Shown: piece after piece, positions 1 through 33,088 of the stretch
Numbering within the stretch: position 1 is the first letter of the stretch
Layout of the letters: the number at the start of each line of letters is the position of its first letter
NCBI GenBank assembly: GCA_027475525.1
Contig: JAMWFC010000005.1
Coordinates: 124,001 to 188,000, forward strand
Reading direction: 5' to 3'
Length of the DNA stretch: 64,000 nt
Source: Macrolepiota albuminosa
Taxonomy: Eukaryota; Basidiomycota; Agaricomycetes; Agaricales; Agaricaceae
Program-made: the position numbers and the translations under genes
The notes under the pieces: generated by a model
What the model was told of the DNA's origin: nothing
What the model saw: only the letters and a program-made list of their open reading frames with translations
The model's database searches: none

Positions 1-21
1 TCCCTCCTTACACCGTTCTTG

Positions 22-2739
22 ATGGCTACGTATACTCACACTTACTACCCTATGGGCTATCAGACCGACCCCTACGGACGTCCGGTCCCCAATCATTACT
101 CTGCACAAACCCCCTGCCCTGCCTACCCACCCCTCCCATACGAACCTCAGTATCTCCACTGCCACTAGGCCCCCGACCCATCCCTCTATGATCTGGGGCC
201 CTCAGCCAGCTAGGCCCCCCCACCCAACTTAGCTATGGCACGACCCGTGGAGGTCCCCTCGTACCAGAGCATCCCCGGGGGCCTACCGAAGACACCACCA
301 GTCCCCAGCGGACCTCGCCTGGTACCCCCCAGCGAGGGCCCCTTTGCACCTACCCCCTACTACGGTTACCAGCGCCCTGCCCCCCAACCCCAGGTACCCC
401 TCAACTATGACTACCCCCCTCGACACTACCCAACCGCCGCCCCATCCGCTCGGACTCCCCCCTCGCCAATGGAACAACGACGTCTCGAGGACTATGAACG
501 GCAACGGGACGAAGTGCTCCGCTTGCTCAGGATCTCACCGGAGGACTTTGCACAACAGGCAAAGGCGCTACTCACGGAATTCGGACATGACGACTTCATA
601 GGCACACCGGAGGACTGGGCCCATTGCTTGGTCAAATTCGGGGATTGCCTCACACGAGGAGAACTCCTGGAGCAGACGATGGTAAAGTATAGGTGCAACA
701 CTATCCTCCGCGAAGAATTACAGCAACTGCTTGACAAAGTCCACACGTCCCCATCCCCCCGACCCCTCAATGACCCCACGGACCTGGGCCGCTCGATTCA
801 CATCCAACGGGAACCCCCAGAACCGGCCCCGGCAGTCTCCGCGACCCCCACTCCGGAGCAGCGACAACGGGAAGAGCGGCAAAACGCCTTAGCAATACTG
901 CAGTCCCTCAACCTGATGGGAGGGCTATTCAATCAGCCTGCTGCCTGCATGGTAGGATTGTCAACTCGCCGTAGGGCTAACTCAGTTCCTAGCACCTTCG
1001 AGACCTGGGAACAGCCCCAGAGACCCCTGGAACCCCTTCCGCAAACAGACAACGCCCGACCCCCAGCCCCGGCGAACCCCGGTAGACCCTGCATGGACAC
1101 CACTAGCATGGAAAACACGCTGTGCTACATCGACGAGCTCACACGTGAACAACGTCCCGCGCCCGCGCCTGCCCCCTACGTCAGCCCCGGCCCCCCCAGA
1201 ACGCAATTTCCACCGCGACCCCCCACCCCACTTCGACTTACGGAACCCCCCGCGACCCCCAATGCAAGCACGACCCTCCCGGACTGAACGTCTCCCGTGC
1301 AATCCAGCACCCGATCCAGCACCCGGCCCCCCTCTGAATGACCCAACACTGCCGAATCCTCCCCGACCGCCTCCGCCACCCCCATCCGAACCTTGAGGAC
1401 AACCCCCAGGCCCCCCACCTCCGAACCTTGAGGACGACCCCCAGGCCCCCCACCTCCGCCACCCCCCGTGTGGAGACCCAGGCCTCCCCCTGGCAGGAAC
1501 GAACCCCCTTGAGACAATGGACCTCCCGGGCACAGACCTCCAGGTGAGCCACCTGGAGGAGGCCCTCCAGGCAGGTGGGGTCCTGCCCTTGGTGTGTTTC
1601 CTCTACAGGGAGGGGGGGGTAACCATTACTACTATTACTACAATGCCAGCCCCCCTCCCCGCAACGCTGCCAGACCGGATGACGCTCGTGATGCCCTCGC
1701 CCGCGAAGAACGTCTGGACATTCAAAAGCCCGATGCATTCACGGGCTGGGACCCCCAAAAATGGCATACATTCTTTACTCAGTGTCTCAATACGTTTCAG
1801 GCAAAACCACTCATGTTTCAGGTTGACAGCTTCCGAGTGGCCTTTGCCACCTCGTACCTCCAGGGGATCGCCTTTGACCACTACACGGCCCTCATCCAGT
1901 TCGACCCCAACAACCCGGCACTCACCTACTGGCAAGCCTTCGTCGACGAGTTCTCCAAGAAATTCAGGATCTACAACACCGTGGCCAAAGCCGAGGACAA
2001 CCTCTTCAACCTCCGGATGCGCTCTGAAGAACGTTTCACTACCTTCATTGTATGTTTTAAAAAGGAAGCTTACGAGACAGGTTGGAATTACAGCACCCTC
2101 CGGTACGCCCTCCGCTGTGCCTTGCCGCAGCGTATCAAGGACGTCCTCCGACTCGCCCCAAAACAACCCTTCTATGACGGATACAAGGCCCTCGTCATGC
2201 AGATCGACCAACGCTACTGAGAAGACCGCAGCAAGTACTTGAACTCCCAGCCCCCCTGGAACTCTAGGGGAGGACCCCCTTGGCCCTCCAGCGAAACCCC
2301 CAACCCCCAAGGTCGGAACCCCGGTTCCTCCGCGTTCTCTGGTGGCCGACCTCCGGTGAGTCACGGCCCGCGTAATGCTAACCCCGGCAGCGGCATTCGC
2401 CCCCAGGCCCAACTCAATGCCACCATGGCCGCCCACGACCCGGGCGACGCGCCAAGCCCTGAGGAACCCCCGGAAGACCCCAAAGACTTCGACGTCAACA
2501 ACGAACGAGACGAGGAGGCCCTCTGGGCCAACCGGCTTCAAAAGAAGGGACAACCCTGGATCGAAGTCCCGAAGGATGTGCAGGGACGGCAAAGGAGGGA
2601 AGGTGCGTGCATACTCTGCGGTGAGAAAGACCATTTTATCTCTGAGTGCCCTCAACAACAGGTTATGGGACGCGCCACCTGGACCTTCGAAGGGGAGGAT
2701 GCCACCTACGAGTACTTGGAAAACGACCCGGTGATTTAG
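22..2739 (+). pseudogene. Gag of copy A (broken)
   Basis: Structural nucleocapsid polyprotein of family 1. The start ATG at 22 matches the gag starts of B and D. The N-terminal part is Pro/Tyr-rich, followed by a Pro/Arg-rich linker, then a retrotransposon-gag capsid domain in an open stretch at 1594-2220 (rich in F, W and amphipathic helices). A CCHC zinc knuckle C-X2-C-X4-H-X4-C is encoded near 2610-2655, and the frame ends at 2737-2739. Two early TGG codons have become TAG near 166 and 210, and frame changes occur near 1165 and 1400, so no full protein can be made. A 35-bp tandem duplication lies at 1386-1455. Confidence 0.85.
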
Positions 2740-3050
2740 ACCCAGAAGACGCCTTAAATCGTGGAATCTCTCACACCTTCGCTCCACGACACTCATACAG
2801 GACACCCTGACAGCTTACCTACCCTCCCACTCCTCGCACTCCCTCCTCCTCAAAACTCGCCTCACCCCCTCCGGAACCCCCCTCAACACCCTCGTTGACA
2901 GTGGTGCCACCGACAACTTCATCGACAAAGCATGGTCTATCCTCGCCCCGGAACCCGCTCAGCGACTCCCGGTCCCAGTACGGCTCTGCCTCTTTGACGG
3001 GGACGCCTCCACGGCAGGGGATATCACTCACTTCATGTGTATGCCCGTTA

Positions 3051-3204
3051 CTTTCGCCAACGGACAGACTCACACCCTCCGGATGTTGATAACCAAACTC
3101 CACCCTTCTGCACCCCTGGTCCTAGGGCTTTCGCCAACGGACAGACTCACACCCTCCGGATGTTGATAACCAAACTCCACCCTTCTGCACCCCTGGTCCT
3201 AGGG
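3051..3204 (+). repeat. 77-bp tandem duplication (2 units)
   Basis: Units 3051-3127 and 3128-3204 are identical. Other family-1 copies have one unit. It breaks the frame of the first retropepsin domain. Confidence 0.95.
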
Positions 3205-4507
3205 CTCCCGTGGCTCTGAGACACCAACCCGTGCATCAATTGGCAACATCTTACCCTCTGCCTGACTCGGGACCCAACGCCCAACAACCAGCAACTCCTC
3301 TTCGACATCCCCCACTCTCTGAACCCTACCCTGAAGGACAGGCCCCCACCACCCCCCGGACTTCAGTCCCGCTCGTCCCGATCCTTTGTTATCAATGCCA
3401 GGCTGGACGGCACCCCGGGGCCGATATTGGCCCTCATTGACAGCGGAGCCACCGGAGTTTTCATCAGCGACGCCCTCGACCTCCCCCACGACTCCCTCGA
3501 CCAGCCCCTCTGCCTGCAACACCTCGATGGCACCCCCTCCGCCTCCGGCCCCATCCAGAGATCTCATTTGGGACGCGTGACCCTGGACAACGACTACAAA
3601 TTCACCTCCAACTTCCTGGTCATGCGACTCCACGAATCGACCCCGATGGTGCTGGGACTACCCTAGCTGCACGACACGAACCCTGACATCGATTGGAGGA
3701 CGCTCACCATGACCTTCCCAGGACCCGAAGACCACCCCTCGACCGCCGTGCACCTCTGGGCCCTAGGAAGCGACCCAACGCCCGACACCTCCAGGACAAC
3801 TGCCGTGCCCCCCACACATTCACCGCCCACACCTGTCCGAGACCGCAAGGCCCCTGATCGACCCCCAAACATTCCTTGGAACAAGTACAAAGGGCCGAAC
3901 TACCCTGACTGGTCTCAGACACATGTCAAGCCCGCTCCAGCCGATGCGCCTGCGACTCCGATCGACCTGAACGCACTCAACATTAGGATCATCGGAGCTG
4001 CCCCCTTCGCCCGCCTCATGAAGGATGGAACACCCACGTTTCAGCTACATACCTCACCATCTCTCCCAGAAGAACATCTACAAGGGGACACTATTCCCCC
4101 GGAAAAGAAGTCCGAGGAGCAGATCCTCCGAGAAGTAGTTCCCCCGGAGTATCATGAGTTCGCTGACGTATTCTCTGAAGGAGGCGCCAAGGAAATTTCC
4201 CCGCACCGCCCCTATGACCACACTATCGACCTCGAGAAAGGAGCTGCCCCCCCTTTCGGCAAGGTATACAACATGTTGGAAGTCAAACTCTGGGCCCTCA
4301 AGGACTACCTTGACGAAATGCTTGGTAAGAGATTCATCCAACCCTCTGCCTCCGCCGCCGGAGTCCCGGTTCTATTCACCAAGAAGAAGGACAGCTCGCT
4401 CCGACTCTGCGTCGACTACCGGGGACTCAATAAAATCACCAAGAAGAACCGCTACCTGCTTCCGCTTATTGGCGATCTGGTCGATTGACTCCGCAGTGCC
4501 AGGGTTT

Positions 4508-5026
4508 TGTAAGGGCAACCTCTAGAGGCTGTGGCTCAGTCACACAGCTGGCAGAGGAAGATCCAAAGTGTATTAGAATATATACTGACAATATCAAAGT
4601 AGCTACTCACCTGGCAGAGGGAGATCCAAAGAGAACAAGTCTGGGGATTCCCTATGCCAGGTTGGACGCTTCTGGGGCCTCTGAAGCATGGGAAACAACT
4701 GTACAGTACAACAAAACCTTAAAAACTCGAAAATTGACTAACCAAACAAGTGTGCAAACAAGGGAGGAAAACTCCGGACTTTTAGAAGTCAGAAAGGCAA
4801 ACTCCGGCTTATCTAAGCAGCCTGGAGTGGTGCTGAAGGGCCCACACTTGTCTGAGTGATAGCTAAAGAACCAGAGCACCTCAAAGGTTGAGAATAGTAC
4901 TAACAGATAGTGTTGAAAAAGTAGTAACAGCAAAATGAGAGAATGATAGAAGAAATAAGGAAGTGAATGAAAGGAGAGTGAAGAAATAAAGAGTGAAAGA
5001 AGAAAGGAATGAGGAGTCCCCTGACA
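4508..5026. mobile_element. Solo LTR-like insertion, 519 bp, unassigned family
   Basis: The insert begins TGTAAGGG and ends CCCTGACA (imperfect terminal inverted repeat, TG...CA). It is flanked by a perfect 5-bp duplication GGTTT at 4503-4507 and 5027-5031. Copies B and G read straight through this point in RT, which gives the empty site. Inside are two copies of a roughly 20-bp box at about 4549-4570 and 4612-4633, and an A/G-rich 3' third. There is no coding capacity. It does not resemble the other LTRs in the window. Confidence 0.8.
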
Positions 5027-5550
5027 GGTTTACACAAAGATCGACCTCTGCTCCGGTTACAACAACATCCGCATCGCCCCAGGACACAAGTGGAAGACTG
5101 CGTTCTGCACGCGGTATGGTCTGTTTGAGTACCTTGTGATGCTTTTTGGAATGACTAACTCCCCCGCCACGTTCCAATACTTCATGAACGACATCTTCGA
5201 CGACATCAGCGACGTTTTCGTGATCGTCTACCTGGACGACATCCTCATTTATTCCGACTCGCAGGAGGACCACCAGATGCATGTCTGGCAAGTCCTCAAA
5301 CGCCTCCGGGAGCACAACCTCCATGCCAAACCCGAGAAGTGTTCATTCCATACGGAAGAGGTTGAGTATCTTGGCGTCTGTCAGGTTCCGCTGAGTCGGG
5401 GGCTTTCCGGGAAAGCAACGCCCTTACGATGCGGACTTGACCTACAAATACTCGGGTGTCTGGAACTCCGGGACTAGGATTCCGGGGTTCAAGACGTGGA
5501 CAGGGAAATCCCGGGAGAGGGGACTTAGTCCGGGGGTTTTGGGTGGATGG

Positions 5551-5704
5551 GTAACGGGGAAGTTCGGGTAGGGGTCGAGTCGTGAACCGGGGGTTCTAAG
5601 ACGAGACCAAGTTAGTAAGTTAAAGTCGTAACGGGGAAGTTCGGGTAGGGGTCGAGTCGTGAACCGGGGGTTCTAAGACGAGACCAAGTTAGTAAGTTAA
5701 AGTC
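5551..5704 (+). repeat. 77-bp tandem duplication
   Basis: Units 5551-5627 and 5628-5704 are identical. The 5' LTR of the same element has a single unit at the matching place (16211 onward). Confidence 0.95.
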
Positions 5705-5951
5705 GTGAAGTGCATACCGGTCTTAGAGCACGCGATTATCCAAGCGTGCCAGTCAAGCGTGCCAGTCAATGCGTACCAGTCAAATAGAGGGCACGCAACA
5801 ATCCAAGTAAAGCAGAGTAACAGTATATGTATGCAATATCAAGACTAGCGAATACAACAGGGAACTATGCTATAAGTACTACGGGACTGGGTCTCGGGGT
5901 TCCGGGATGTTTGGGATGGGTTCCGGGGGTCATTGAGTAGCGGCAGAGGCT

Positions 5952-6105
5952 GCATACCGGGATCGCGCGTGTGGGGCGCGCGATCAATTGGCGCGGATGG
6001 AGCCGTGATGCGTGATGCGCGATGGTCGGCATACCGGGATCGCGCGTGTGGGGCGCGCGATCAATTGGCGCGGATGGAGCCGTGATGCGTGATGCGCGAT
6101 GGTCG
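5952..6105 (+). repeat. 77-bp tandem duplication
   Basis: Units start at 5952 and 6029. The same duplication occurs at the same place in the 5' LTR (16610-16763) but not in the LTRs of A, D or the solo copy. Confidence 0.95.
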
Positions 6106-6287
6106 GGAGCGAGTCGTGTGATCTGATCGTTGATCGGGGCTGGGGGCGGCTGATGGCGGTCCTTGATGCACGTAATGGCGGTGTCGGCGGTCGTGATGGC
6201 GGGGCGTGTCCTGTGGGGTTGGAGGGGGGTCCCGGAGGGTGTTCCGGGGGTGTCCTGGGGTGGGCCCGGAGGGAAGAGGTCGTGACA

Positions 6288-6300
6288 TCACCCCCCCTTC
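6288..6300 (-). other. Polypurine tract of copy B
   Basis: Read on the minus strand this is GAAGGGGGGGTGA directly before the 3' LTR, the expected primer for plus-strand DNA synthesis. Copy A has the matching GAAGGGGTGA at 22228-22237. Confidence 0.8.
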
Positions 6301-6416
6301 AGCGCCGAGACCCTCTGAGGCACGCATAGCCGGGGGTTTGGACCGGGGCCCAACCGTGGGATCCGGCACCTGACTTGCCACGTATCGAAAAAAATTTTTT
6401 ACCATCAAACTCAACC

Positions 6417-8233
6417 ATGTCGCGTACGCCGACGCATTCCCCGACGCCCCCGCAAACCAACGAGGTCGCACCCCTTATGGCCTGGGAAGCCCGGGACGCG
6501 CGATACCGAGCCCGTCTTGACCGGGAGCGTGTGGCGGCGCTCGTCGAGCAACGTGAGTACTCCCGCGCCGCCCCCTTACCCCACTGACCTTTCCTTTTCA
6601 GAACAACGCAACATTCCTGCTCCGGAGGCAGGTCCAAGCCGGCTCCCGGAGTCTGCTCCTGCAGCGGGTCCCGGGGGTCCTTCGGGGTCAGGCCCCAGTC
6701 GTCCCGCGCCTTCCTTTGCGCGGATGACCGTGCGTCCTCCTTGTCCCCAGCCCCCTCCCCGCCCGAGATTGCCTGCCCCTCGTTTTCGTCGCTCCCGGAT
6801 GGCGATAGGGACCGTGGCAGAGGTCCCAGAGGGTCAACATGTCGCGTGGGCGGGCGCCACGCAGGAGCTGTTCAAGGAGGCCCTGGAGAGGCCCCGGGGA
6901 CTGCCTACTCACGCGTCGTGCATGAGTAACGGACCGGTGAGTTGTGCCCTACCTATGATCCCTATTGCTGACTTCGGTGCAGTGCTTGCACTGCGCCCGC
7001 CGGGGGGTGCTTTGCACCTTCGAAGTCCCGAGCCCCTCGTCCCGCCGGGACACGGCTGTGTGCGAGGCTTGCCGCCTCAATCACGAGCGTTGTTCCGTGT
7101 CGGCGCTGTGGAGGGCGCGTTCTGTCGCCCGGGAGCAGGGATGGCCGTTGGCGGGAATCACCTGGAGGATGGGTGTGGAGGAGAGGGATTGGGTGGCGGA
7201 GCCGGTAGGCGAGGGGGTGGAGCCAGAGGGGGGGGTGCCCGCGGCGTCCGCGGAAGTGTCCAGCGGGGGGTCGGGGGGTCAGGGGGCCAGGTTGGGGGGC
7301 CGGGGCCGGCCCGTGGTCCTCATCACCCGTCGGGTGACCCGGTCCAGCGCCCAGGGGTGGGAAGGGCGGGGGCGCCCTGATAAGGGCAAGTGGCGGGCGT
7401 TGTCTAGCCCCTCCCCGGGGCCTTCCAAGAGGGCGCGCTTGCCTTCTGGGACCCCTTCCCCAGTTTCCCCCCCGCGTCTTTCCCCGGCAGCGTTCTCGCC
7501 TTTGTCGGGGCAGCCCTTGGAGGCGGATGTGGTGGCCCCTCACGAGCGCCCGGGGGAGTTCAAAGAGGGTGGGGAGGAGGCCGTCGCGCGTCGGGAGTCC
7601 GAGACGGGCTGGGAGACGCTTCGATTGTTGGAGGAGGCTCGGGTAGCTCGGGGGGAGGTGGAGGCGGAGCTGGAGGCGTTGAGGGCGAGGTTGGGGCAGG
7701 GGGTGGGGATCCCGGAGCGGTAGCTCGGGGGGAGGTGGAGGCGGAGCTGGAGGCGTTGAGGGCGAGGTTGGGGCAGGGGGTGGGGATCCCGGAGCGGACC
7801 CCCTCGGGACAGGAGCTGGTGGAGGGTCTTTGCCGCGATGTGGTGGTCTCGCGTATGGCGTCCTTGAGTGAGTCCACTGCTGCTCGCCTACTTCCTTCTG
7901 CTGACGTCTTCAGGCTGGGCCCGGGAGCACCGCTTGCTCCTGGACGGGGCTGCCGCGGCCCTTGCTACGCTACAGGAGGGGCAACGCCCGGAGCTGACGA
8001 CCCCCGGGGTGGAGCGCGGCCTCGACCTCCTGGGGCGGCTGGTGGTTGCTCACCGGCGAAGGAACGTGCCCGCCCCAGGCTCCTGGTTCGAACGCGTGTT
8101 GGACGAGGGCGAGCCTCTTCCATTGTGGGAAGCGCTGGCCGAGGAGGTCTGGCAGGAGCGCGGTCCGGAGGGGGTAGGGGAGGGCTTCCGGGGCTGGCCA
8201 TGGGGAGGGGGTAGTGAGGGGGGCTCCGGTTAG
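6417..8233 (+). CDS. Antisense spliced gene of copy B: Zn2Cys6-like protein
   Basis: Runs opposite to gag-pol of its own element. Four exons: 6417-6552, 6602-6936, 6983-7867, 7914-8233. Introns are 49, 46 and 46 bp, all GT-AG with GTGAGT donors, and phases 1, 0 and 1 match. Exon 3 contains a 77-bp duplication (7643-7796) that makes a stop; removing one unit leaves 533 codons open to TAG. Exon 3 begins with six cysteines spaced C-X2-C-X6-C-X15-C-X2-C-X6-C (about residues 158-194), the spacing of a fungal Zn2Cys6 DNA-binding cluster with a long loop. Further on are a basic GPSKRARL stretch (possible nuclear signal) and a Leu/Glu/Arg-rich likely coiled coil (about 365-398). The ATG has an AACC context 130 bp from the 3' LTR, which could supply the promoter. 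A nuclear regulator is inferred; the true function is unknown. Confidence 0.75.
7643..7796 (+). repeat. 77-bp tandem duplication inside the antisense gene
   Basis: Units 7643-7719 and 7720-7796 are identical. The second unit causes a frameshift and stop in exon 3. Copy G has one unit here. Confidence 0.95.
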
Positions 8234-8508
8234 GGTGTGGTATTTTTGGTGCTTTCTTGTCGTCTTCGTACGCCCGTTTCGCTGACCTGTGTAATAATGT
8301 ACTTGTAGAAAATGTACATACTTGGTTTCACGTAGTAATAGTGGTGTAAGTAAAGTGGCGGGGTAGTTGGGAAGAGTACCTTGCCCATAATCCGGGGCGC
8401 TACTGTAAAAAAAGGAAAACTAGAAGGGATTAAGATCTAGAAAGGAAAAACAGAAAGTATACGCGGGAGTTGAATCCCTGATGAGTCCAGAGGCGGGGGT
8501 TACACCCA
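8234..8508. other. Intergenic gap between convergent antisense gene and pol
   Basis: 275 bp of A/T-richer sequence separate the stop of the plus-strand antisense gene (8233) from the stop of minus-strand pol (8509). The gap must hold both 3' ends. Similar gaps exist in A (19186-19472) and G (46754-47055). I see no coding region or clear hairpin. Confidence 0.6.
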
Positions 8509-8850
8509 CTACTGCCGTCTGTGAGTCCTGCGCCCCGGAGGGTCGTTTCCCGGGTGCCGTTGTTGGAAGTCCCGGAGTTTGTCGAGGGCGCCTTCGAGGT
8601 TTTTGCGTGGTTCCCAAGTGTCGTCTTCCGGGCCGTATCCCTTCCACCGTATGAGGAAGTGGGGTCGTCCACGAATGTTCCGGGAGTCGAGGATGTCTTC
8701 GACCTCGTAGTGGTACTCGTCCTCGACCTCGACCGGGGGAGGGGGTTCGGGTCGTCGTCCAGGGAAGGGATCTGGGGGGTGTCGCTCCAGGAGGCGGATG
8801 TGGAAAACCGGGTGCAGTCCTTTTAGTCCCGGGGGAAGTTCAATCTTGTA

Positions 8851-9004
8851 GGCGTGGGATGAGACCTTCTTCAATATTTTGAACGGGCCGAGACGCTTGT
8901 GATCGAGTTTTGGGGAGGGCCGGCAGAGGCGTGGGATGAGACCTTCTTCAATATTTTGAACGGGCCGAGACGCTTGTGATCGAGTTTTGGGGAGGGCCGG
9001 CAGA
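8851..9004 (+). repeat. 77-bp tandem duplication
   Basis: Units start at 8851 and 8928. They lie in the integrase C-terminal part of copy B; copies A and G have one unit. Confidence 0.95.
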
Positions 9005-11227
9005 TGCGGAGGTGTCGTTGATCTAACCATACCTTTGTCCCAGGGGTCCAGTCGGGGGTGTCTTCCCGTTTCTGGTCGGCGTGTTTCGCGTAGGCCCAGT
9101 TCGCGGTGTCAATCACTTTCCGGAGAAACTCGTGAAGAGACTGGAGATCCCGGGCGACCTCGTGGGCGGCGTGTGACGGGATGTCCCGGAGCGAGAGCGT
9201 CAGTCGAGGATGGTACCCCTTGTTGGCAAAGAAGGGCGATACCCTGGTGGCGGAGTGTGGCATGTTGTTGTAGGTGAACTCAGCCAGGGGGAGCTCGGCG
9301 CACCAGTCGTCCTGCAGGTAGTTGACGTACAGCTGGAGGTACTGCTCGAGGGACTGGTTGACCCTTTCGGTCTGACCGTCGGTTTTGGGGTGGTAGGCGG
9401 TAGAGAGGTTAGTCTTTACTTCAAGTGCCTTACACAGGGAAGTCCAAAACTTGGATACAAAGAGGGGGCCACGGTCGGAGACGATGTCGTCTGGGAGTCC
9501 ATGTTTGGCGAAGACGTGCTCGAGGAACAGTCGGGCAAAGTCCGGGGCGGTGTCCGTGGTATGGCAGGGTAGGAAGATGCCCTGTTTGGTTAGCCTGCAC
9601 ACAACGACGAGAATGGCATCGAACCCTTCAGATTCCGGGAGTTCGACGATGTGGTCCAGGGATATGGAGGACCAGGGGCGTCGTCCGACTGGCAGGGGTT
9701 TCAGGAGTCCGTATGGTCAGTGTCGGGGGACCTTGGCCCGGAGGCAGGGTTCACATGATCGAATGTAGCGGGTCACGTCCTTCTTCAACCCTGGCCAAAA
9801 GTAAGTCCGGGAGATCAGCTGGAGAGTCTTACGTATTCCAGGGTGTCCCCGGAGCTTGTGATCGTGGTGTTGACGAAGGACGTCGTAGCGGAGTCGGGCG
9901 TGATCCAGGACGTAGATGCGGCCGTCCCGGAGGAGGAGTTTTTTGTCGGGGGACAAGGAGAAGGCGGGGTCCCGGTCGGTTTCGTCGGAAGGGTTTCGGG
10001 GGTCGTGATCGGTGAAGTACTTGTCTCGGGGAGCGCGGCGGATCTGATTCAGGGTTCCTTCGTCGTTTAAGATCAGTACGGCATTCAGATGTTCGGGAGG
10101 GATCACCACGCGATGATTGAACGCATTGCGTTCCGCCTCGAATGACTTCTTGGGGTAGACGTCCGGTCGACGGGTAAGGGCATTGGGCTTGGCGCCAAGT
10201 CGTCCCGGGCGGTACTGGATCGTGAAGTTGTATTCCGAGAGGATCTCGGACCATCGGGCCTGCCGTCGACTGAGTTGCTTGGTCGTGGTGAAGTACTGCA
10301 GGTTATTATGATCCGAATAGACCTGGATCCGGTGCTGGGCTCCCTTGAGGTAGGCCCGCCATTGCTTGAAGGCTTCGACGATGGCGAGGAGCTCCTTGTC
10401 ATAGATGTTGTAGTTGAGCTCGGCGTCGATCATGGACCGGGTGTAGAAGGCAATGGGCCGGGGCTCCCCTCCGTCAGGTTCCATCTGCGAGAGAATCCCG
10501 GCGATGGCATAGTCGGAGGCGTCGCATTCCAGGATAATCGGGAGGGTCGGGTCGTAGTGCTGGAGTACGGGGGCGGCTGTGAAAGCCTCCTTGAGCAGGT
10601 TAAAGACGCTCTGGCACTTACTGTCCCAGTTCCAGGCGATGTCCTTACGCGTGAGCCGGTTGAGGGGTTTCGTGATCCCGGAGTAGTTGTCTATAAACCT
10701 CCGGTAGAAGTTAGCGAAACCCAAGAAGGACTGTACTTCCTTCACGTTCCGGGGCTGCGGCCAGTTGACGATGGCCTCAACCTTGTGGGGATCCATGCGG
10801 ACGCCGTTCGGGGATACGATGACGCCAAGATACTCCACCTCTTCCGTGTGGAATGAACACTTCTTGGCTTGGCGTGGAGATTGTGCTCCCGGAGGCGTTC
10901 GAGGACTTGCCAGACATGCTTCTGGTGGTCCTCCGGCGAGTCGGAATAAATGAGGATGTCGTCCAGGTAGACGATCACAAAGACGTCGCTCATGTCGTGG
11001 AAGATGTCGTTCATGAAGTATTGGAACGTGGCGGGGGAGTTAGTCATTCCAAAAGGCATCACAAGGTACTCAAACAGACCATACCGCGTGCGGAACGCGG
11101 TTTTCCACTCGTGTCCCGGGGCGATGCGGACGTTGTTGTAACCGGAGCGGAGGTCAATCTTTGTATAAACCTTGGCACTGCGGAGTCGATCGACCAGATC
11201 GCCAATGAGCAGGAGCGGGTAGCGGTT

Positions 11228-11381
11228 CTTCTTGGTGATCTTATTGAGTCCCCGGTAGTCGACACAGAGTCGGAGCGAGCCGTCCTTCTTCTTGGCAAAT
11301 AGAACTTCTTGGTGATCTTATTGAGTCCCCGGTAGTCGACACAGAGTCGGAGCGAGCCGTCCTTCTTCTTGGCAAATAGAA
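11228..11381 (+). repeat. 77-bp tandem duplication
   Basis: Period 77 between 11234 and 11311, with a few bases of junction ambiguity (CTTCTT). It lies in RT of copy B; A and G have one unit. Confidence 0.93.
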
Positions 11382-11570
11382 CTGAGGCTCCGGCGGCGGA
11401 GGCGGAGGGTCGGATGAATCCCTTACCGAGCATTTCGTCGAGGTAGTCCTTGAGGGCCCGGAGTTCGACCTCCGACATGTTGTAGACCTTGCCGAAAGGG
11501 GGGGTGGCTCCTTCCTCGAGGTCGATGGTGTGATCATAGGGGCGGTGAGGGGGGATCTCCTTGGCGTCTC

Positions 11571-11724
11571 CTTCGGAGAATACGTCAGCGAACTCGTGAT
11601 ACTCTGGGGGAACTACTTCTCGGAGGATTTGCTCCTCGGTTTTCTTCCTTCGGAGAATACGTCAGCGAACTCGTGATACTCTGGGGGAACTACTTCTCGG
11701 AGGATTTGCTCCTCGGTTTTCTGT
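11571..11724 (+). repeat. 77-bp tandem duplication
   Basis: Units start at 11571 and 11648 in the protease-RT linker of copy B; A and G have one unit. Confidence 0.95.
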
Positions 11725-13259
11725 TCCGGGGGAATAGCGTCCCCTCGTAGGTGTTCTTCCGGGAGAGAGGGCGAGGTGTGTAGCTGAAACGTGGGAGTCC
11801 CATCCCTCATGAGGCAGGCGAAGGGGGCGGCCCCAATGATCCTAATGTCGAGTGCGCTCAGGTCGATCGGTGTTGCGGAATCATCGGCCGGAGCGGGTGT
11901 GACGCGTGTCTGAGACCGGCAGGGGTAGTTCGGCCCCTTGTACTTGTTCCGAGGAATGTTTGGGGGTCGATCGGGGGCCTTGCGGTCTCGGATGGGCGGG
12001 GGTGGTGCATGCGTGGGGGGCGCGGCAGTCGTCCCGGGGGTGTCGGGCGTCGGGTCGCTTCCTAGAGCCCGGAGGTGCACGGCGGTCGAGGGGTGGTCTT
12101 CGGGCCCCGGGAAGGTCATGGTGAGCGTCCTCCAATCGATGTCGGGGTTTGTGTCGCGCAGCCAGGGTAGCCCCAGCACCATCGGGGTCGATTCGTGAAG
12201 TCGCGTGACCAGGAAGTCGGAAGTGAACTCGTAGTTGTTGTCCAGGGTCACGCGTCCTGAGTGAGACCTTTGGATGGGGCCGGAGGAGGAGGGGGTGCCG
12301 TCGAGGCGTTGCAGGCGGAGGGGCTGGTCGAGGGAGTCGTGGGGGAGGTCGAGGGCGTCGCTGATAAAAACCCCGGTGGCTCCGCTGTCGATAAGGGCCG
12401 ATATCGGTCCCGGGGTGCCGTCCAGCCTGGCATTGATGACGAAGGATCGGGACGAGCGGGACTGGAGTCCGGGGGGTGGTGGGGGCTCGTCCGGGGGGTC
12501 CTTCGGGGTTGGGTTTGAGGAGTGGGGGATGTCGAAGGGGAGTTGCTGGTCGTCGGGGGTCGGGTCCCGGGTCAGGCGAAGGGTGAGGTGTCGCCAATCG
12601 ATGCGGGGGTTAGTGTCCCGGAGCCACGGGAGCCCTAAGACCAGGGGTGCAGAAGGGTGGAATTTTGTTATCAACATCCGGAGGTTGTGAGTCTGTCCGT
12701 TGGCGAAGGTAACGGGCATACACACGAAGTGGGTGATGTCTCCCGCCGTAGAGGTGTCTCCGTCAAAGAGGCAGAGTCGTACCGGGTCCGGGAGTCGCTG
12801 GGCGGGTTCCGGGGCAAGGGTAGATCATGCTTCGTCGATGAAGTTGTCGGTGGCGCCACTGTCGACGAGGATGTTGAGGGGAGTTCCGGAGGGGGTGAGG
12901 CGGGTTTTGAGGAGGAGGGAGTGCAAAGAGTGAGAGGGTAGGTAAGCAGTGAGGATGTCCTGTATGAGCGTCGTAGAGCGAAGATGTGAGACCGGGGCGG
13001 AGAAGACGTCGGGGTCGATTCCGCGATTTAGGGCGTCTTCTGGGTCTAAATCGCCGGGTCGTTTTCCGAATACTCGTAGGTGGCGTCCTCCCCTTCGAAG
13101 GTCCAGGTGGCACGTCCCATGACCTGTCGTTTGGGGCACTCGGAGATGAAATGATTTTTCTCACCACAGAGTATGCAGACACCCTCCCTTCTCCGTCGTT
13201 CCTGCATATCCGTCGGGACTTCGATCCAGGGTCGTCCCTTCCTTTGAAGCCGGTTGGCT

Positions 13260-13413
13260 CGGAGGGCCTCCTCGTCCCGCTCGTCGTCGAAGTCGAAGTC
13301 TTCGGGGTCTTCCGGGGGTTCCTCGGGGCTTGGCATCGGAGGGCCTCCTCGTCCCGCTCGTCGTCGAAGTCGAAGTCTTCGGGGTCTTCCGGGGGTTCCT
13401 CGGGGCTTGGCAC
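13260..13413 (+). repeat. 77-bp tandem duplication
   Basis: Units start at 13260 and 13337, in gag of copy B near the zinc knuckle. Confidence 0.95.
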
Positions 13414-14410
13414 ATCGCCCGGGTCGTGGGCAGCCACGGCGGCGTTGAGTTGGGCCTGGGGACAGGTGCCGCTGCCGGGGTTAGCATTGGGCGGGCTGCG
13501 ACTCACTGGGGGTCGGCCGCCAGGGAACGCGGGGGGACCAGGGTTTCGACCTTGGGGGTTGGGAGCTTCGCCGGGGGGCCAAGGGGGTCCTCCTCTAGGG
13601 TTTCAGGGGGGTCGGGAATTCGAATACTTGCTGCGGTCTTCCCAGTAGCGTTGGTCGATCTGCATGATGAGGGCCTTGTATCCGTCGTAGGAGGGTTGTT
13701 TTGGGGCGAGTCGGAGGACATCCTTGATGCGTTGTGGCAGGGCGCGGCGGAGGGCGTACCGAAGGGCGCTGTAGTTCCAACCTGTTTTGTAAGCTTCCTT
13801 CTCAAAACGTACGATAAAGGTGGTGAAACGTTCTTCCGAGCGCATCCGGAGATTGAAGAGGTTGTCCTCGGCCTCGGCCACGGTGTTGTAGATTCCGAAC
13901 TTCCCGGAGAACTCGTCGACGAAGGCCTGCCAGCGAGCGAGTGCTGGATTGTTGGGGTCGAACTGGATGAGGGCCGTGTAGTGATCGAAGGCAATCCCCT
14001 GGAGGTATGATGTGGCAAAGGCCACCCGGGAGCTGTCAACCTGAAACGTGAGCGGCTTTGCCTGGAACGTATTGAGACACTGAGTGAGGAAGGTACACCA
14101 TTTTTGGGGGTCCTGGCCCGTGAAAGCGTCGGGCTTTTGGATGTCCAGTCGTCCTTCACGGGCAAGGGCGTCGCGAGCATCGTCTGGTCCGGCAGCGTTG
14201 CGGGGAGGGGGGCCAGCATTGTAATAGTAGTAATAGTGATTACCCCCCCCTCCTTGAGGAGGAAAAGCACCAAGGGCGGGGCCCCACCCGCCGGGAGGTC
14301 CTCCTCCGGGTGGCTCACCTGGGGGTCCATGCCCGGGAGGTCCGTTGTCCCAAGGGGGTTCGTTCCTGCCAGGAGGGGGCCCGGGTCTCCACGCAGGGAG
14401 TGGCGGAGGT

Positions 14411-14564
14411 GGAGGGCCTGGGGGTCGTCCTCGAGGTTCAGCTGGGGGTGGCGGAGGCGGTCGGGGAGGGTTCGGCGGTGTCGGGTCGGAGGGCCTGGGG
14501 GTCGTCCTCGGGGTTCGGCTGGGGGTGGCGGAGGCGGTCGGGGAGGGTTCGGCGGTGTCGGGTC
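14411..14564 (+). repeat. 77-bp tandem duplication, imperfect
   Basis: Units start at 14411 and 14488 and differ at two positions (A/G each). They lie in the Pro-rich part of gag, where copy A has an independent 35-bp duplication. It is the one member of the 77-bp set with internal mismatches. Confidence 0.85.
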
Positions 14565-15946
14565 AGGCGGAGGGGGGTTAGGTGCTGGGTCGGGTGCTGG
14601 GTTGCGCGGAGGATGTTCAATCCAGGAGGGTCGGGCTTGCATCGGGGGTCGCGGGGGGTTCCGTAGGTCGAAGTGGGGTGGCGGATCACGGCAGAAGTTG
14701 CGTTCCGGAGGGGCCGGGGTGGACGTGGGGGGCGGTGCTGGTGCTGGGGCGGGCGTGGGCGCGGGACGTTGTTCGTTGTTGTCGCGCGTGAGCTCGTCGA
14801 TGTAGCATAACGTGTCGTCCGTACTAGGGATGTCCACCCGGGCTCTACCGGAGTTTGCCGGGGGCGGAGGTCGGGCGTTGTCCATTCGCGGGAGGGGTTC
14901 CAGGGGTCTCTGGGGCTGCCCCCAGGTCTCGAAGGTACTAGGAACGGAATTAGCCCTGCGACGAGTTGACAAGCCTACCGTGCAGGCAGCGGGTTGGTCG
15001 AAAAGGCCTCCAGTCGGGTTGAGGGACCGTAATATGGCTGAGGCGTTCTGCCGTTCTTCCCGTTGTTGTTGCTCCGGAGTGGGGACCGTGGAGGCTGCCG
15101 GGACTGCTGGGGCCGGTTCCGGGGGTTCCCGTCGAATGTGAATCGAGCGACCTGGGTCCGCAGGGTCGTTGAGGGGCCGAGGGGAGGGGGACGCGTGGAC
15201 TTCGTCGAGCAGTTGCTATAATTCTTCCCAGAGGATCGTATTGCGCCTATACTTTACCATGGTTTGCTCCGGGAGTTCTCTTTGCGTGAGGTGATCCCCG
15301 AATTTGACCAGGCAGTGAGCCCATTCCTCCGGAGTGCCTTCGAAGTCATCGTGTCCGAATTCTACGAGCAGCGTCCTCGTCCGTTGCACGAAGTCCTCCG
15401 GCGAGATCCTGAGGGAGCGGAGTACCTCGTCCCATTGCCGTTCGTACTCCTCGAGGCGTTGTCGTCCCATTGGCAAGGGAGGGGTTCGAGCGGGTGGAGC
15501 GGCGGCCAGGTAATGATGAGGGGGGTAGTCGGGGTAGGGGGGTCCTCGGGGTTCTCGGGGTTGGGGGACGGGGCGCTGATAACCGTAGTAGGGGGTGGGT
15601 GCAAAGGGGCCCTCGCTGGGGGGAATCGGGCGAGGTCCACTGGGTACGGGTGGGGTCTCCGGCAGGCCCCCGGGGATGCTCCGGTACGAAGGGACCTCCA
15701 CGGGTCGTGCCATGGCTAAGTTGGGCGGAGGGGCCCAGCTGGCTGAGGGCCCTAGGTCGTAGAGGGACGGGTCGGGGGCCCAGTGGCGGTGGAGATATGG
15801 AGGGTCGTACGGGAGAGGTGGGTAGGCGGGGCGGGGGGTCTGCGCGGAGTAGTGGTCGGGTACCGGGCGTCCGTAAGGGTCGGTCTGGTACCCGGTGGGG
15901 TAGTAAGTGTGAGTATACATAGCCATCAAGAACGGTGTAAGGAGAG

Positions 15947-15958
15947 AGTCTTGATATT
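15947..15958 (-). promoter_or_regulatory. Self-priming primer-binding site of copy B
   Basis: On the minus strand AATATCAAGACT lies one base inside the 5' LTR. It is the exact complement of AGTCTTGATATT within the LTR (reverse strand of 16416-16427, repeated at 16493-16504 by a 77-bp duplication). This is the arrangement of Tf1/sushi elements, where the 5' end of the mRNA folds back to prime minus-strand synthesis. No tRNA-like TGG site is seen here. Confidence 0.75.
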
Positions 15959-15977
15959 ATGTCAGGTTCCGCTGAGT

Positions 15978-16131
15978 CAGGGGCTTTCCGGGAAAGCAAC
16001 GCCCTTACGATGCGGACTTGACCTACGAATACTCGGGTGTCTGGAACTCCGGGGCAGGGGCTTTCCGGGAAAGCAACGCCCTTACGATGCGGACTTGACC
16101 TACGAATACTCGGGTGTCTGGAACTCCGGGA
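15978..16131 (+). repeat. 77-bp tandem duplication
   Basis: Units start at 15978 and 16055 and match over 76 bases. Absent from the 3' LTR of the same element. Confidence 0.93.
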
Positions 16132-16351
16132 CTAGGATTCCGGGGTTCAAGACGTGGACAGGGAAATCCCGGGAGAGGGGACTTAGTCCGGGGGTTTTGG
16201 GTGGATGGGTAACGGGGAAGTTCGGGTAGGGGTCGAGTCGTGAACCGGGGGTTCTAAGACGAGACCAAGTTAGTAAGTTAAAGTCGCGAAGTGCGTACCG
16301 GTCTTAGAGCACGCGATTATCCAAGCGTGCCAGTCAAGCGTGCCAGTCAAT

Positions 16352-16505
16352 GCGTACCAGTCAAATAGAGGGCACGCAACAATCCAAGTAAAGCAGAGTA
16401 ACAGTATATGTATGCAATATCAAGACTAGCGTACCAGTCAAATAGAGGGCACGCAACAATCCAAGTAAAGCAGAGTAACAGTATATGTATGCAATATCAA
16501 GACTA
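16352..16505 (+). repeat. 77-bp tandem duplication
   Basis: Units start at 16352 and 16429 and are identical. Absent from the 3' LTR. It duplicates the putative RNA start/self-primer. Confidence 0.95.
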
Positions 16506-16609
16506 GCGAATACAACAGGGAACTATGCTATAAGTACTACGGGACCGGGTCTCGGGGTTCTGGGATGTTTGGGATGGGTTCCGGGGGTCATTGAGTAGCG
16601 GCAGAGGCT

Positions 16610-16763
16610 GCATACCGGGATCGCGCGTGTGGGGCGCGCGATCAATTGGCGCGGATGGAGCCGTGATGCGTGATGCGCGATGGTCGGCATACCGGGATCG
16701 CGCGTGTGGGGCGCGCGATCAATTGGCGCGGATGGAGCCGTGATGCGTGATGCGCGATGGTCG
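16610..16763 (+). repeat. 77-bp tandem duplication
   Basis: Units start at 16610 and 16687. Same position as the duplication at 5952 in the 3' LTR. Confidence 0.95.
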
Positions 16764-16945
16764 GGAGCGAGTCGTGTGATCCGATCGTTGATCGGGGCTG
16801 GGGGCGGCTGATGGCGGTCCTTGATGCGCGTAATGGCGGTGTCGGTGGTCGTGATGGCGGGGCGTGTCCTGTGGGGTTGGAGGGGGGTCCCGGAGGGTGT
16901 TCCGGGGGTGTCCCGGGGTGGGCCCGGAGGGAAGGGGTCGTGACA

Positions 16946-19472: not shown

Positions 19473-22111
19473 CTACCGGCCCTTGCTCCCCTCCCCTGGC
19501 CAGCCTCGGAACCCCTCCTCCATCCCCTCTGGACTGTGCTCCCGCAGTACCTCCTCCGCCAACTGCTCCCAGGACGGGAGAGACTCACCCTCGTCCAGGA
19601 TTCTTTCGAACCAAGAGCCGGGGGCGGGCACGTTCCTCCGCCGGTGGGCCGACACCACCCGCCCCAGCAAGTCGAGGCCCCGCTCCACCCTGGGGGTTGT
19701 CACCTCCAGGCGCTGACCCTCCTGCAGCGCTGCGAGTGCCGCGGCCGCCCCTTCCAGGAGCAAACGATGCTCCTGGGCCCAGCCTGTGGGTGTCAGTGAG
19801 GAGCCAAGCCCGGGGAAAGAAACACTCACTCAGCGAAGCCATGCGGGCGACCACCACATCCCAGGACACCGTCTCCAACAGCCCCTCCGGAAACCCTGCC
19901 CCTTGCCTCAACCTCCCCCTCAATGACTCCAACTCAGCCTCGGCCTCCCCCCAAGCGACCCTGACCTCCTCCAGATCCCGGAGCGCCGCCTCCCGACCCT
20001 CCTCCAAACCCCTCCAAATGGCCGCCTCCTCCTCGCGCTCCTGGAGGTTCCCGACACTGACGCCCAAGGGCCTCCCAGACAAGGGGGAGAATACCGCTGG
20101 GGACAGATGAGGCGGGAAAACTGGGGGTGGGGTCTCAGAGGGCGCGCCTTCTTGGAAGGCCCGGGGGATGGGCTCGGCGACACCCGCCACGCCCCTCCCG
20201 ACTCCCCCTGGCCCCCCACCCAAGAGGCTCCCCCGCTCCCTGACCCCCCCCTGAGCCCCCCACAGGCACCGCCTGTGGCTCCCCCTCTGGCTCCACCACT
20301 CAATCCCTCTCCTCAACCCCCATCCTCCGGGTAATCCCCCCGAGCAGCCACCCCTGTTCCCTCGAGACACAGCGCGCCCTCCACAACGCCAACACGGAAC
20401 ATCGTTCATGATTGAGGTGGCATGCCTTGCACACAGATGTGTCCTGGCGGGACGAGGGGCCCGGGACCTCAAAAAGGCACATCACCCCCCAGCAGGCACA
20501 GTGCAGACACTGCGCTGAGATCAGCGACAAAACCAGAGGTGCGAGGTTGCTTACCGGCCCGTTACTCACACACCAGGCATGAGTGGGCAAGCCCCGGGGC
20601 CTCTCTAGGGCTTCTCCAAAAGAATCTTGTGATACACCCTCCCACGCAACACGCTGGTCCACCAGGACTTTGGAAATGGCCCCCACCGCCATCCCGGAGC
20701 GGCGAAAACGGGGGGCGGTTAGCCTAGGACAAGGGGGAGGATGTGGGCGCGGGAGGCAGATGGTCATCCATGCAAAGGTAGGCGCAGGGCAACCAGGGCG
20801 CGACTCTGGAGAACCACCAGAGGCAGGCTCTGGGAGACAACTAGGGCCCGCCTCTGGAGCGGGAGAAGAGTGTTGTTCTGAAGGGGAAAATCAGCCGTGG
20901 CAAACGGAACATTGCAGGAAACACTCACATTGTTGCACAAGCGCCGCCACACGCTCCTGGTCCAGGCGGGCTCGATACCGCGCATCCCGGGCCTGCCAGG
21001 CCATAAGGGGCGCGACCTCGTTGGTTTGCGGGAGCATTGGAGAGTGTGTTGGCGTTGATGACGCCAACTGTGGTTGGGTGCGCTGGACGTATACGCAGTA
21101 CAACGCTGTCTCCAGCGCCTGGCATACAGGTTTGTGAGGAGTCCTGGCAGGGTCCCGGTGTGCTCGAGCAGAGGTGATAGGGCGATGCGCTAGACAATAG
21201 TGCCTCGGGTGCTACCTAGCAAGTGGTAAGCGTCGTAGTTTAGGAGAAGTTATAGAGAAATAAACGAATAGCGCAGCGTAGCGTGCCCGTAGGTGGCACC
21301 GTAAACGACGAAGACGAGATAGACGAAGCTAGCGCCAAACTTGGTGACAAAGTCAGGCAACGCTAGCGCGATTTGAACGCTAAGTGTAACTGGGTGCTCA
21401 AGAGGTTACGATTCATTGTTATATACATGGCAAGTAGCTAGTTTTTATACTATGCGCTACATTATTTCCAAAATAAGTCCATTGACAGCGCTACCAATTA
21501 GCGCCTCTATTTGTGACTGTAGCTAACGGCCACCTGTCAACGGCGACCTGCAGCACATGGGTGACGGCGACCAACGGCGACTCGAAAACTACTTAGAAGT
21601 GGTACGAGTTTGCTCACTTTTTGATGTAATTTAATTGGCCATGCCATCCTGGGGTATGGTCGGGGAATCCTCGACAGACGCCGTGAGCGCTAATTCTGGC
21701 GCTAAACATTGTACCATCTTTTGATAGATTTAAATGTCGGGTCTGCGTGTATCCTGTCTTGTCGTCATTGATTCTTTTAGACTTCTGATTGAGGTGCCTC
21801 GGTGATTGACAGCGCCAATTGCTAACTCCTTTCAGTACTGATCGGGGTTTGGTCAGAGTCACCTTCCGCCGTTGTGCTAGCGCTATGAGTTCTGAGTCTT
21901 CTTGTTCTCCAAAGTAACTGAGTGGAGGGCGCTGAGGGGCTGGTACTGGTGATTGAGATGAATGGATAAGTCTTGCCGTAGAGCATCTGCGCTAGAGCTG
22001 CTCTGTACCCAAGGCTGGTCGCTAGAGTCTCTAGTGTGTCAAGTGTTGGTCAGCCTATAATGTCCCTTGATGCGCTCAGTCCGAGTAGAAGCCTATCAGT
22101 GTATGCGACAT
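19473..22111 (-). pseudogene. Antisense Zn2Cys6-like gene of copy A (disrupted)
   Basis: Homologue of the antisense gene at 6417-8233, in the same relative place and orientation within its element. The ATG corresponds to 22111-22109, but a 1043-bp solo-LTR-like insert (21056-22098) separates it from the rest of exon 1, which ends near 20929. Exon 2 is about 20877-20555 and exon 3 starts at 20509. All six cysteines of the C-X2-C-X6-C-X15-C-X2-C-X6-C cluster remain at 20509-20399. The last exon ends at TAG near 19473. Frameshifts in exons 3 and 4 make it inactive. The splice sites line up with those of B, which supports the gene model. Confidence 0.7.
21056..22098. mobile_element. Solo LTR-like insertion, 1043 bp, unassigned family
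   Basis: Begins TGATGACGCC and ends GCCTATCA, so TGAT/ATCA termini, with a 4-bp duplication GCGT (21052-21055) and GTGT (22099-22102, one CpG change). Copy B shows the empty site in codons 3-5 of its antisense gene. Inside is a TATA-like stretch near 21420 and no coding region. TGAT ends and a 4-bp target duplication also mark element F, but the sequences do not match. Confidence 0.6.
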
Positions 22112-27274: not shown

Positions 27275-27428
27275 TGGCAGACTTGCTGACCAGCGGGATT
27301 TATGTCCCGTAAATTCACTGCTGCTCAGCAGAATTATGCTGTGCACGAGTTTGGCAGACTTGCTGACCAGCGGGATTTATGTCCCGTAAATTCACTGCTG
27401 CTCAGCAGAATTATGCTGTGCACGAGTT
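27275..27428 (+). repeat. 77-bp tandem duplication
   Basis: Units 27275-27351 and 27352-27428, in RNase H of element C. E has one unit. Confidence 0.95.
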
Positions 27429-27471
27429 GGAAACACTCGCCATCCTGGAAGCCCTCGTAAAATGGGAGGAT

Positions 27472-27625
27472 AAACTGATGGGATATAAGATCCACATTAT
27501 TACGGATCACAAAGCACTAGAGTTCTTCAAGACTCAGGTGCACCTGTCAAACTGATGGGATATAAGATCCACATTATTACGGATCACAAAGCACTAGAGT
27601 TCTTCAAGACTCAGGTGCACCTGTC
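27472..27625 (+). repeat. 77-bp tandem duplication
   Basis: Units start at 27472 and 27549, in RNase H of element C. E has one unit. Confidence 0.95.
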
Positions 27626-27632
27626 TGCGCAA

Positions 27633-27786
27633 CAACGTTGCTGGATTGACTACATGTCACGGTATCAGTTCAACATCACCTATGTAAAAGGTGAATTGAA
27701 CAAAGTCGACAACGTTGCTGGATTGACTACATGTCACGGTATCAGTTCAACATCACCTATGTAAAAGGTGAATTGAACAAAGTCGT
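27633..27786 (+). repeat. 77-bp tandem duplication
   Basis: Units start at 27633 and 27710, in RNase H of element C. E has one unit. Confidence 0.95.
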
Positions 27787-32737: not shown

Positions 32738-33088
32738 ACCCATGTTAAAATTTTGTTGTGTAGGTACCTCCGAGTCATTCACTTGAACTATTTCAGCTGA
32801 TACGCACTCCAGAGTTGCGTGTAGATACAGCAGACCAAGAGACGGGGTCACTCTTATTTCTTGTTTTTTTTTTTTTTATTTTAGTATAAACATATTTTAC
32901 CCTGCATCTACTGCTGGCGCAACCTGACTTCCAGTGTGTCTAGATAACGCATCTACACTGCGAACAACTGCTAACGTCTGGCAGCCACGCAATACACGTG
33001 TATTCATTGAGAGTTTGCACTATTGTGCATCCTACATCTCGCTCCAACTTCCTCCCTAAGACCAAGTATTTGGTCTCATTGGGGGGTA
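32738..33088 (+). other. 3' untranslated region of element C
   Basis: 351 bp between the ORF3 stop and the 3' LTR. Holds a T-rich tract near 32863-32880 and ends with the tract TTGGGGGGTA at 33079-33088, the likely polypurine primer. No coding region seen. The counterpart in E (45737-46110) is similar. Confidence 0.65.

Follow-up and report, generated by a model that had tools for sequence, protein, structure and literature searches.

Antisense accessory genes of long terminal repeat (LTR) retrotransposons have, to our knowledge, been recognized for years, and their function is not known. One such gene in fungi is brtn of the Boty element of Botrytis cinerea, reportedly first described by Zhao et al. 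in 2011 (Virology 417:248). In the portions of the literature that deal with Boty, brtn is presented as an additional antisense gene of a fungal Ty3/Gypsy element, located between pol and the 3' LTR (PMC7264820); a Boty-like gag-pol is given a CHROMO domain (PMC4227169), and brtn is reported as missing from the last annotation (PMC8365987). Here we analyze a Ty3/Gypsy chromovirus of Macrolepiota albuminosa that carries a spliced antisense gene of its own. The element lies in a stretch of 64,000 nucleotides, hereafter the window (C126:124001-188000; contig JAMWFC010000005.1). Complete insertions carry this gene together with its introns, selection preserves its protein sequence, and its classes have diverged well beyond pol.

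Compared by description only, and not by sequence, Boty and the window element are both fungal Ty3/Gypsy elements with a chromodomain in pol and an antisense gene between pol and the 3' LTR. The antisense-gene layout is therefore already known in plants and fungi, and brtn, as cited in PMC7264820, contradicts the preliminary description of the window, which knew of no fungal element built in this way. In the titles and abstract beginnings covered by our literature search, with most subscription papers outside its scope, we found no antisense gene of a basidiomycete LTR element. Nor did these titles and abstract beginnings describe an element of this type whose antisense gene is spliced and encodes a six-cysteine protein, or the cassette-like divergence reported below.

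The plant examples of antisense additional open reading frames (ORFs) are gene23 of Grande, RIRE2, TRP28 of Retand and PvRetro13, as summarized in parts of PMC7264820 and PMC11963269. Grande gene23 is credited there with its own promoter, and the antisense TRP28 proteins of Retand are described in PMC11963269. As in the window, the plant ORFs are antisense, lie between pol and the 3' LTR in most copies, and are suspected of a nuclear or DNA-binding role. However, their hosts are different, and the word "intron" is absent from the main text of both papers. Our Pfam scans gave no match to TRP28. A viral parallel also appears in these sources, with the antisense promoter of human T-cell leukemia virus (HTLV) treated in a section of PMC7264820 and HBZ named in PMC11963269. 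As is predicted for the window gene, HBZ of HTLV-1 is read antisense from the 3' LTR side and encodes a nuclear protein. HBZ is spliced and dimerizes through its bZIP helix. The analogy is functional only, as HBZ is the bZIP protein of a retrovirus and we claim no homology to the window gene.

A spliced antisense gene that moves with its element

The chromovirus spans 5379-16945 on the - strand of the window, and the antisense gene occupies 6417-8233 on the + strand, between the chromodomain stop of pol and the 3' LTR. Pfam domains of gag-pol match on the - strand, in agreement with the opposite orientations first proposed for the two. The four proposed exons with GT-AG borders are likewise present. 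Exon 1 (6417-6552) begins with the ATG and is more conserved across gene classes than the remaining gene. Exon 2 (6602-6936) was mapped in copies, exon 3 as printed (6983-7867) includes a 77-bp artefact, and exon 4 (7914-8233) contains the stop codon and encodes a conserved C-terminal helical region. The introns between them measure 49 nt (6553..6601, GTGAGT...CTGAC...CAG), 46 nt (6937..6982, phase 0) and 46 nt (7868..7913), with GT-AG borders, GTGAGT donors, a CTGAC branch-like motif and CAG acceptors. At 6983-7093, the start of exon 3, six cysteines have the spacing originally described, C-X2-C-X6-C-X15-C-X2-C-X6-C. Upstream of the ATG, a leader of 129 bases (6288..6416, + strand) reaches to the LTR edge. 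This leader is the element's polypurine tract on the opposite strand, and it is conserved in most of the 11 copies aligned, with C89 unlike the others in the upstream part. It may serve as the promoter or 5' untranslated region of the antisense gene.

The exact tandem duplication in exon 3 (7642..7797, + strand; units 7642-7718 and 7719-7797) had been recognized from the start and is indeed present in the sequence, but it is an artefact of assembly. All 15 exact tandem duplications in the window have a period of 77 (periods 20-399 tested). A scan of 57 other loci (288,835 bases, some overlapping; periods 30-199; two loci repeating the window copy omitted) gave 77 non-N rows of period 77, 63 of them distinct by their flanks, and one short period-30 repeat in L057. 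The raw list from that scan held 78 rows of period 77 together with further periods; one of the 78 and nearly all of the others were runs of N. SPAdes uses k = 77. Because the period is nearly universal and equals a common assembler word length, we reject mutation as its origin and conclude that the 77-bp repeats are unmerged overlaps from short-read assembly. Individual element copies may therefore be chimeric. Frame calls anywhere in this genome assembly should allow for 77-bp tandem duplications. In the window gene, the reading frame is open on either side of the duplication, in ORFs 6965-7723 and 7735-8214, which lie in the expected frames. At this G+C content, long ORFs by themselves carry little weight.

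Searches of the organism's own genome covered 100 Mb in 129 contigs. A first search gave 93 matches (40 of 662 candidates scored) and one with exon 3 as query gave 49 (40 of 535 scored). We mapped the gene in 38 loci, which represent 31 distinct places, and all four exons could be mapped in 14 of these. The spliced frame of 529 codons is free of stops in four of the 14 (L026, L027, L028 and L033), and a stop-free natural copy of 539 codons is found at L059.

The splicing signals are preserved in these copies. Introns differ at 15-53% of aligned positions between compared pairs, and in the copies printed they measure 44-51 nt, with the exception of intron 3 of L014, which holds a repeat. At the mapped borders of introns 1, 2 and 3, the donor GT is kept in 29 of 31, 30 of 30 and 28 of 28 places, the acceptor AG in 31 of 31, 31 of 31 and 29 of 29, and the branch motif CTRAY in 31 of 31, 30 of 30 and 28 of 28; many of the 31 places are closely related and hence not independent events. 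Exon length is constant for exon 1 (28 of 29 places) and exon 4 (14 of 15). Once the 77-base repeats are allowed for, length differences are multiples of three in 27 of 30 places for exon 2 and 24 of 28 for exon 3.

Of ten copies examined with wide flanks, seven (C118, C126b, C53, C59, C54, C114 and C69) cover the whole element, both LTRs included, and have the gene on the strand opposite pol. Two others, C89 and C46, are truncated, and the stretch fetched around C110 contains only part of its gene-side LTR. An exact 5-bp target duplication flanks six of the seven complete copies; C126b has no clear target duplication with its ends, and four of five bases match if the edge is moved by one base. 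The two LTRs are 100% identical over 794 bases in C53 and 99.9% identical over 805 in C126b, and the clean genes belong to four of the seven complete copies (C118, C126b, C53 and C59). Since complete insertions with target duplications carry the gene, it has travelled with the element recently. These insertions keep the introns as well, as expected of the spliced antisense gene carried through transposition that was first envisaged for the window. The introns would survive copying because the genomic RNA is of the opposite strand.

All seven complete copies repeat the domain order that Pfam finds on the - strand of the window element: gag, protease (PR), reverse transcriptase (RT), RNase H (RH) and integrase (IN), with a chromodomain at the IN end. 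Together with LTR termini of the TG...CA type (TGTCAC...CTGACA) and short target duplications, this order is that of a Ty3/Gypsy chromovirus. Queries from pol also lead to the gene. With the pol end alone as query (40 of 585 candidates scored), the gene adjoins pol in the expected orientation in 29 of 40 places and a remnant does so in one, C126:326599, with ten outside the count; 27 of the 29 come from comparing coordinates by eye with the gene matches, and the other two are places among the 12 unlisted ones that were read, both of which carry the gene. A query from exon 4 to the chromodomain (40 of 637 candidates scored), which is biased toward gene-bearing copies, found gene sequence beside pol in 39 of 40, with only a remnant at C126:326599 and none at C100:60619. 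By position and strand, the gene is an antisense additional ORF between pol and the 3' LTR in most copies.

The antisense gene is under purifying selection at the protein level. Equal synonymous and nonsynonymous change among copies, which had been named as the pattern that would speak against the gene, is not what we see: the ratio of nonsynonymous to synonymous divergence (dN/dS, Nei-Gojobori) is 0.165-0.236 among L026, L029, L012 and L059. When all six frames were compared in five pairs, the gene frame had the lowest dN/dS in every pair and was alone below 0.25. The pol-strand frame that shares its third positions gave 0.37-0.43, and the remaining four frames exceeded 1.2.

Divergence of the gene from pol

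To compare the gene with the element around it, we used 11 elements, among which 45 pairs have both gene and pol (IN plus RT/RH) codons. Synonymous divergence (dS) is higher in the gene than in pol in 41 of the 45. We define between-class pairs by a gene dS above 0.4. In the 37 pairs of this kind, gene dS is 0.42-0.79 (median 0.67) and pol dS is 0.06-0.25 (median 0.18), with median dN/dS values of 0.165 and 0.135, respectively. Among the remaining eight pairs the order is reversed in four, as in C53 and C59, where gene dS is 0.000 and pol dS is 0.185. A faster mutation rate in the gene cannot yield both the excess and the reversals. For protease plus gag, dS is mostly 0.05-0.25 and rises to 0.47 in pairs with C69.

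We also compared a larger set of 30 loci (435 pairs). Median identity is 0.86 in the LTR plus leader, 0.81 and 0.79 in the two halves of the gene, and 0.93 at the pol end. Clustered at 90% identity, the loci fall into a single group by pol end, five by LTR plus leader, seven by the N-terminal half of the gene and ten by the C-terminal half. Both flanks are at least 94% alike while a gene half is at most 85% alike in 35 of the 435 pairs, and two further places that we read are 93-94% identical at the pol end and 70-75% in the gene. Most loci were picked by gene similarity, so gene diversity is understated if anything.

The limits of the divergent region can be seen between C53 and C77. At -700 to -40 relative to the ATG, in the LTR and leader, the two copies are 95-100% identical; identity drops to 55-88% between about +140 and +2000 and is mostly 92-100% in pol beyond. 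The LTR is not uniform throughout the family, as both copies are only 44-57% identical to the window copy in parts of it.

The simplest reading of these comparisons is that old gene classes have been shuffled among elements by recombination, for which template switching during reverse transcription would be the obvious route. Exchange may also occur inside the gene. No swap of a whole half (one half at least 97% identical, the other at most 85%) was found in the 435 pairs of 30 loci. Outside that set, C46 and C77 (L057 and L059) are 96-100% alike over the first ~850 bases and 73-75% alike in the later part, which suggests recombination inside the gene.

The distribution of classes suggests a penalty on the common ones, whether through small RNAs from the sense/antisense overlap, recognition by the host, or self-restriction resembling that of Ty1. 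For copy number control of Ty1 by p22, differences between subfamilies and spread by recombination are indicated in PMC4599808, PMC7055915 and PMC12530519. Ty1 p22 is a self-encoded regulator acting in trans; the window gene differs in being separate, antisense and spliced. We tentatively consider that the antisense gene could be an identity locus: a recombining cassette with old, discrete classes that negative frequency-dependent selection maintains. Each class would escape the silencing or self-restriction aimed at the others, with little variation in pol and, in some pairs, a common LTR across classes.

It is a minority possibility in our estimation that homology-dependent silencing drives the divergence. 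Double-stranded RNA, formed where the antisense unit overlaps the 3' part of the sense transcript, would be turned into class-specific small RNAs, and new classes would escape them. The protein would be real, but nucleotide divergence would reflect escape from small RNAs or pairing rather than protein specificity. The divergent island of C53 and C77 coincides with the antisense unit and ends where pol coding starts, with LTR, leader and pol alike, and the gene divergence in the 37 between-class pairs is mostly synonymous, both in favor of silencing escape. However, a very similar trace would be left if protein types were balanced or if recombination had occurred with distant relatives.

The predicted product and the element around it

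The gene is predicted to encode a six-cysteine protein that probably binds zinc. The exact cysteine spacing is found in 30 of the 31 distinct places, and L003 is frame-shifted there. Beside the cysteines, residues invariant in the 13 rows of A3 include, numbered from the first Cys, F13, E14, S20, D23, H34, L42, W43 and the string EQGW; single genome copies deviate from some of them. A basic stretch, DKGKWRA...SKRARL (7379..7441, + strand), resembles a bipartite nuclear signal. The predicted coiled-coil region starts at approximately 7560..7720 (+ strand), as judged from helices in the model of a relative, P0002.

An initial protein search returned two relatives. In the profile search that followed (7992 candidates scored, 82 rows), the scored candidates included P0001 (source "lgn") and, from Termitomyces sp. 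T32_za158, at least 80 hypothetical proteins with E <= 0.001 and one more with E 0.49; many are partial. The exact cysteine motif is present in 12 of the 82 and a basic stretch like DKGKRK in 39 of the 82, in a set where many members are incomplete. P0001 apparently reads through an intron where intron 2 would lie, and P0046 contains an insertion where intron 3 would, so the introns seem to be shared. The Termitomyces proteins (P0002-P0082) are possibly retrotransposon genes miscounted as host genes. Other searches gave no relative: none in an IMG/VR scan with A1, no match in a region search with residues 145-225, and no credible match in a PDB sequence search.

The cysteine spacing led the preliminary description to propose a Zn2Cys6-like cluster. 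Similar to the fungal Zn2Cys6 factors (PF00172; Gal4, Ppr1, Put3 and Hap1), the window protein has its six cysteines in two C-X2-C-X6-C halves, with a basic stretch and a coiled coil some way behind them. In contrast to these factors, it has a loop of 15 residues, a His in the second half that is invariant in the 13 rows of A3, and a PF00172 score below the cut-off. The loop of fungal Zn2Cys6 clusters is usually shorter than 15 residues. In the window piece, PF00172 scores 14 bits against a gathering cut-off of 21; of four members scanned, three match, the best at E 0.26, below the cut-off. Profile alignment by hhalign against four yeast Zn2Cys6 pieces gave a probability of 10.3 and a score of 18.2, also reached by 7 of 100 column shuffles in which the cysteines were kept, and the best match pairs the first cysteine half with the second half of Gal4. 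A PF00172 search of the organism's own genome gave 21 matches above the cut-off, none of which coincides with a listed copy of the antisense gene.

The AlphaFold model of P0002 (41 sequences) has a mean predicted local distance difference test (pLDDT) score of 63.4, with long helices at 231-299 (pLDDT 72-92) and 313-373, and the cysteine piece modeled alone reaches a mean of 52.6. Foldseek found no match to the P0002 model in the PDB at E <= 0.001. Given the PF00172 scores, the weak hhalign result and the poor models, we do not call the product a member of Zn2Cys6, and the family assignment is left unsupported. The suspected nuclear signal and coiled coil fare better: the bipartite basic stretch is recognizable by eye, and the model of P0002 contains a long helix of coiled-coil type.

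The rest of the window element, all on the - strand, is arranged as follows. Its 3' LTR (5379..6287), which reads TGTCACGACC...GGAACCTGACA on that strand, was delimited by self-comparison and termini and contains two 77-bp assembly duplications; the 5' LTR (15960..16945) contains three. With the repeats removed, both measure 755 bases (986 - 3 x 77 and 909 - 2 x 77). The window LTR pair gave no usable date: its simple alignment, which the 77-base repeats disturb, has 90 mismatches in 897 aligned bases. The end of pol holds a Tf2-1-like SH3 domain and the chromodomain (8512..9030; PF24626 and PF00385, above cut-off). Next to it is the integrase part (9003..9602), recognized by reading the translation and by matches in other copies, not by Pfam. 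RNase H and the integrase zinc-binding domain, with the RT end before them, occupy 9720..10838 (PF17917, PF17919 and PF17921). The aspartic protease region (11616..12725; PF08284) is just over its cut-off, and gag lies at 13606..14025 (PF03732).

The window element, flanked by GCGTC/GTGTC, sits within an older member of its family that runs in the opposite orientation (1-5378 and 16946-about 21055) and whose interrupted pol resumes on either side. This outer element has its own degraded antisense gene (about 19480-21055, - strand), and its RT is interrupted by an A+T-rich insertion of ~520 bases (4505-5026). A third, partial copy of the antisense gene is found at 33260-34490 (71% identical to 6582-7521), with LTR sequence nearby at 36468-37265. 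A second long repeat, separate from the Gypsy element, is present in two copies of the same orientation (22781-33262 and 34665-46285) that are 87-97% identical in pieces.

Possible action of the accessory protein

We lean, with reservations, toward the view that the chromovirus carries its own spliced accessory gene in reverse, and that the nuclear, dimeric product acts in trans on the life cycle of the element. Transcription would start at the 3' LTR edge or in the conserved leader, and splicing by the host would give a protein of about 530 residues. This product would combine the six conserved cysteines, probably zinc-bound, with the nuclear-signal-like basic stretch, the long coiled coil and the conserved C-terminal helical region. 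It would enter the nucleus and dimerize through the coiled coil. There it would most likely act in trans on transcription, silencing, or nuclear or integration steps, in the manner of the HTLV-1 protein HBZ or of the antisense accessory proteins of plants. Many old classes of the gene would persist, and recombination would shuffle them into elements with a far more uniform pol.

Several observations weigh against this view. Only four of the 14 fully mapped places have a clean frame, and the other ten are broken or artefact-bearing; among the complete copies, the exon lengths of C54 and C69 suggest 77-base insertions, and exon 2 of C114 is unmapped. Between L027/L028 and L033, dN/dS is 2.7, mostly from non-third positions, on a total of eight differences that is too few to interpret. 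Much of the protein is of low complexity and its models are poor, and the Pfam and PDB searches, the profile comparison and the model make the identity of the zinc cluster weak. We infer expression of the gene from sequence. In addition, the type of LTR and the type of gene do not go together in C53 and C77, which disfavors a simple class-specific repressor of the LTR.

Instead of acting on transcription, the protein could work in the particle or at integration, through packaging, nuclear import or, together with the chromodomain, the choice of target. We give this the same modest weight as silencing escape. Such a role would suit a protein whose basic stretch and cysteines may be able to bind nucleic acid, an element with a chromodomain in pol, and a gene that remains beside pol in the copies examined. 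However, the antisense and separately spliced layout uncouples the gene from gag-pol expression.

A product of short-read repeat assembly, whether the gene itself or its divergence from pol, is very improbable. Unmerged 77-base overlaps are present, so single copies may be chimeric, and this could explain why pol differs between C118, C53 and C59, whose genes are identical. Path switching by the assembler could give the four gene/pol reversals, but it could not keep pol divergence so low throughout: it should not bring pol sequences 0.67 apart at silent sites to values that never exceed 0.25 in any of the 45 pairs. Exact target duplications at six of the seven complete copies, and independent relatives in another genus, also argue against it. 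We find it equally hard to credit a captured host gene riding as a functionless passenger, since the ordinary fungal gene architecture and the ten broken or artefact-bearing copies would fit such a passenger, but dN/dS disfavors decay, with purifying selection nearly as strong as on pol in the same pairs, across classes, and with the Termitomyces relatives.

This family is well suited to experiment. Its copies include young and intact ones, its gene falls into many classes, and the gene model is an ordinary spliced one, which makes expression, nuclear entry and class-specific control directly testable. If it is true that silencing or self-restriction keeps the classes, the antisense gene would be a clear case of balancing selection within a transposable-element population.
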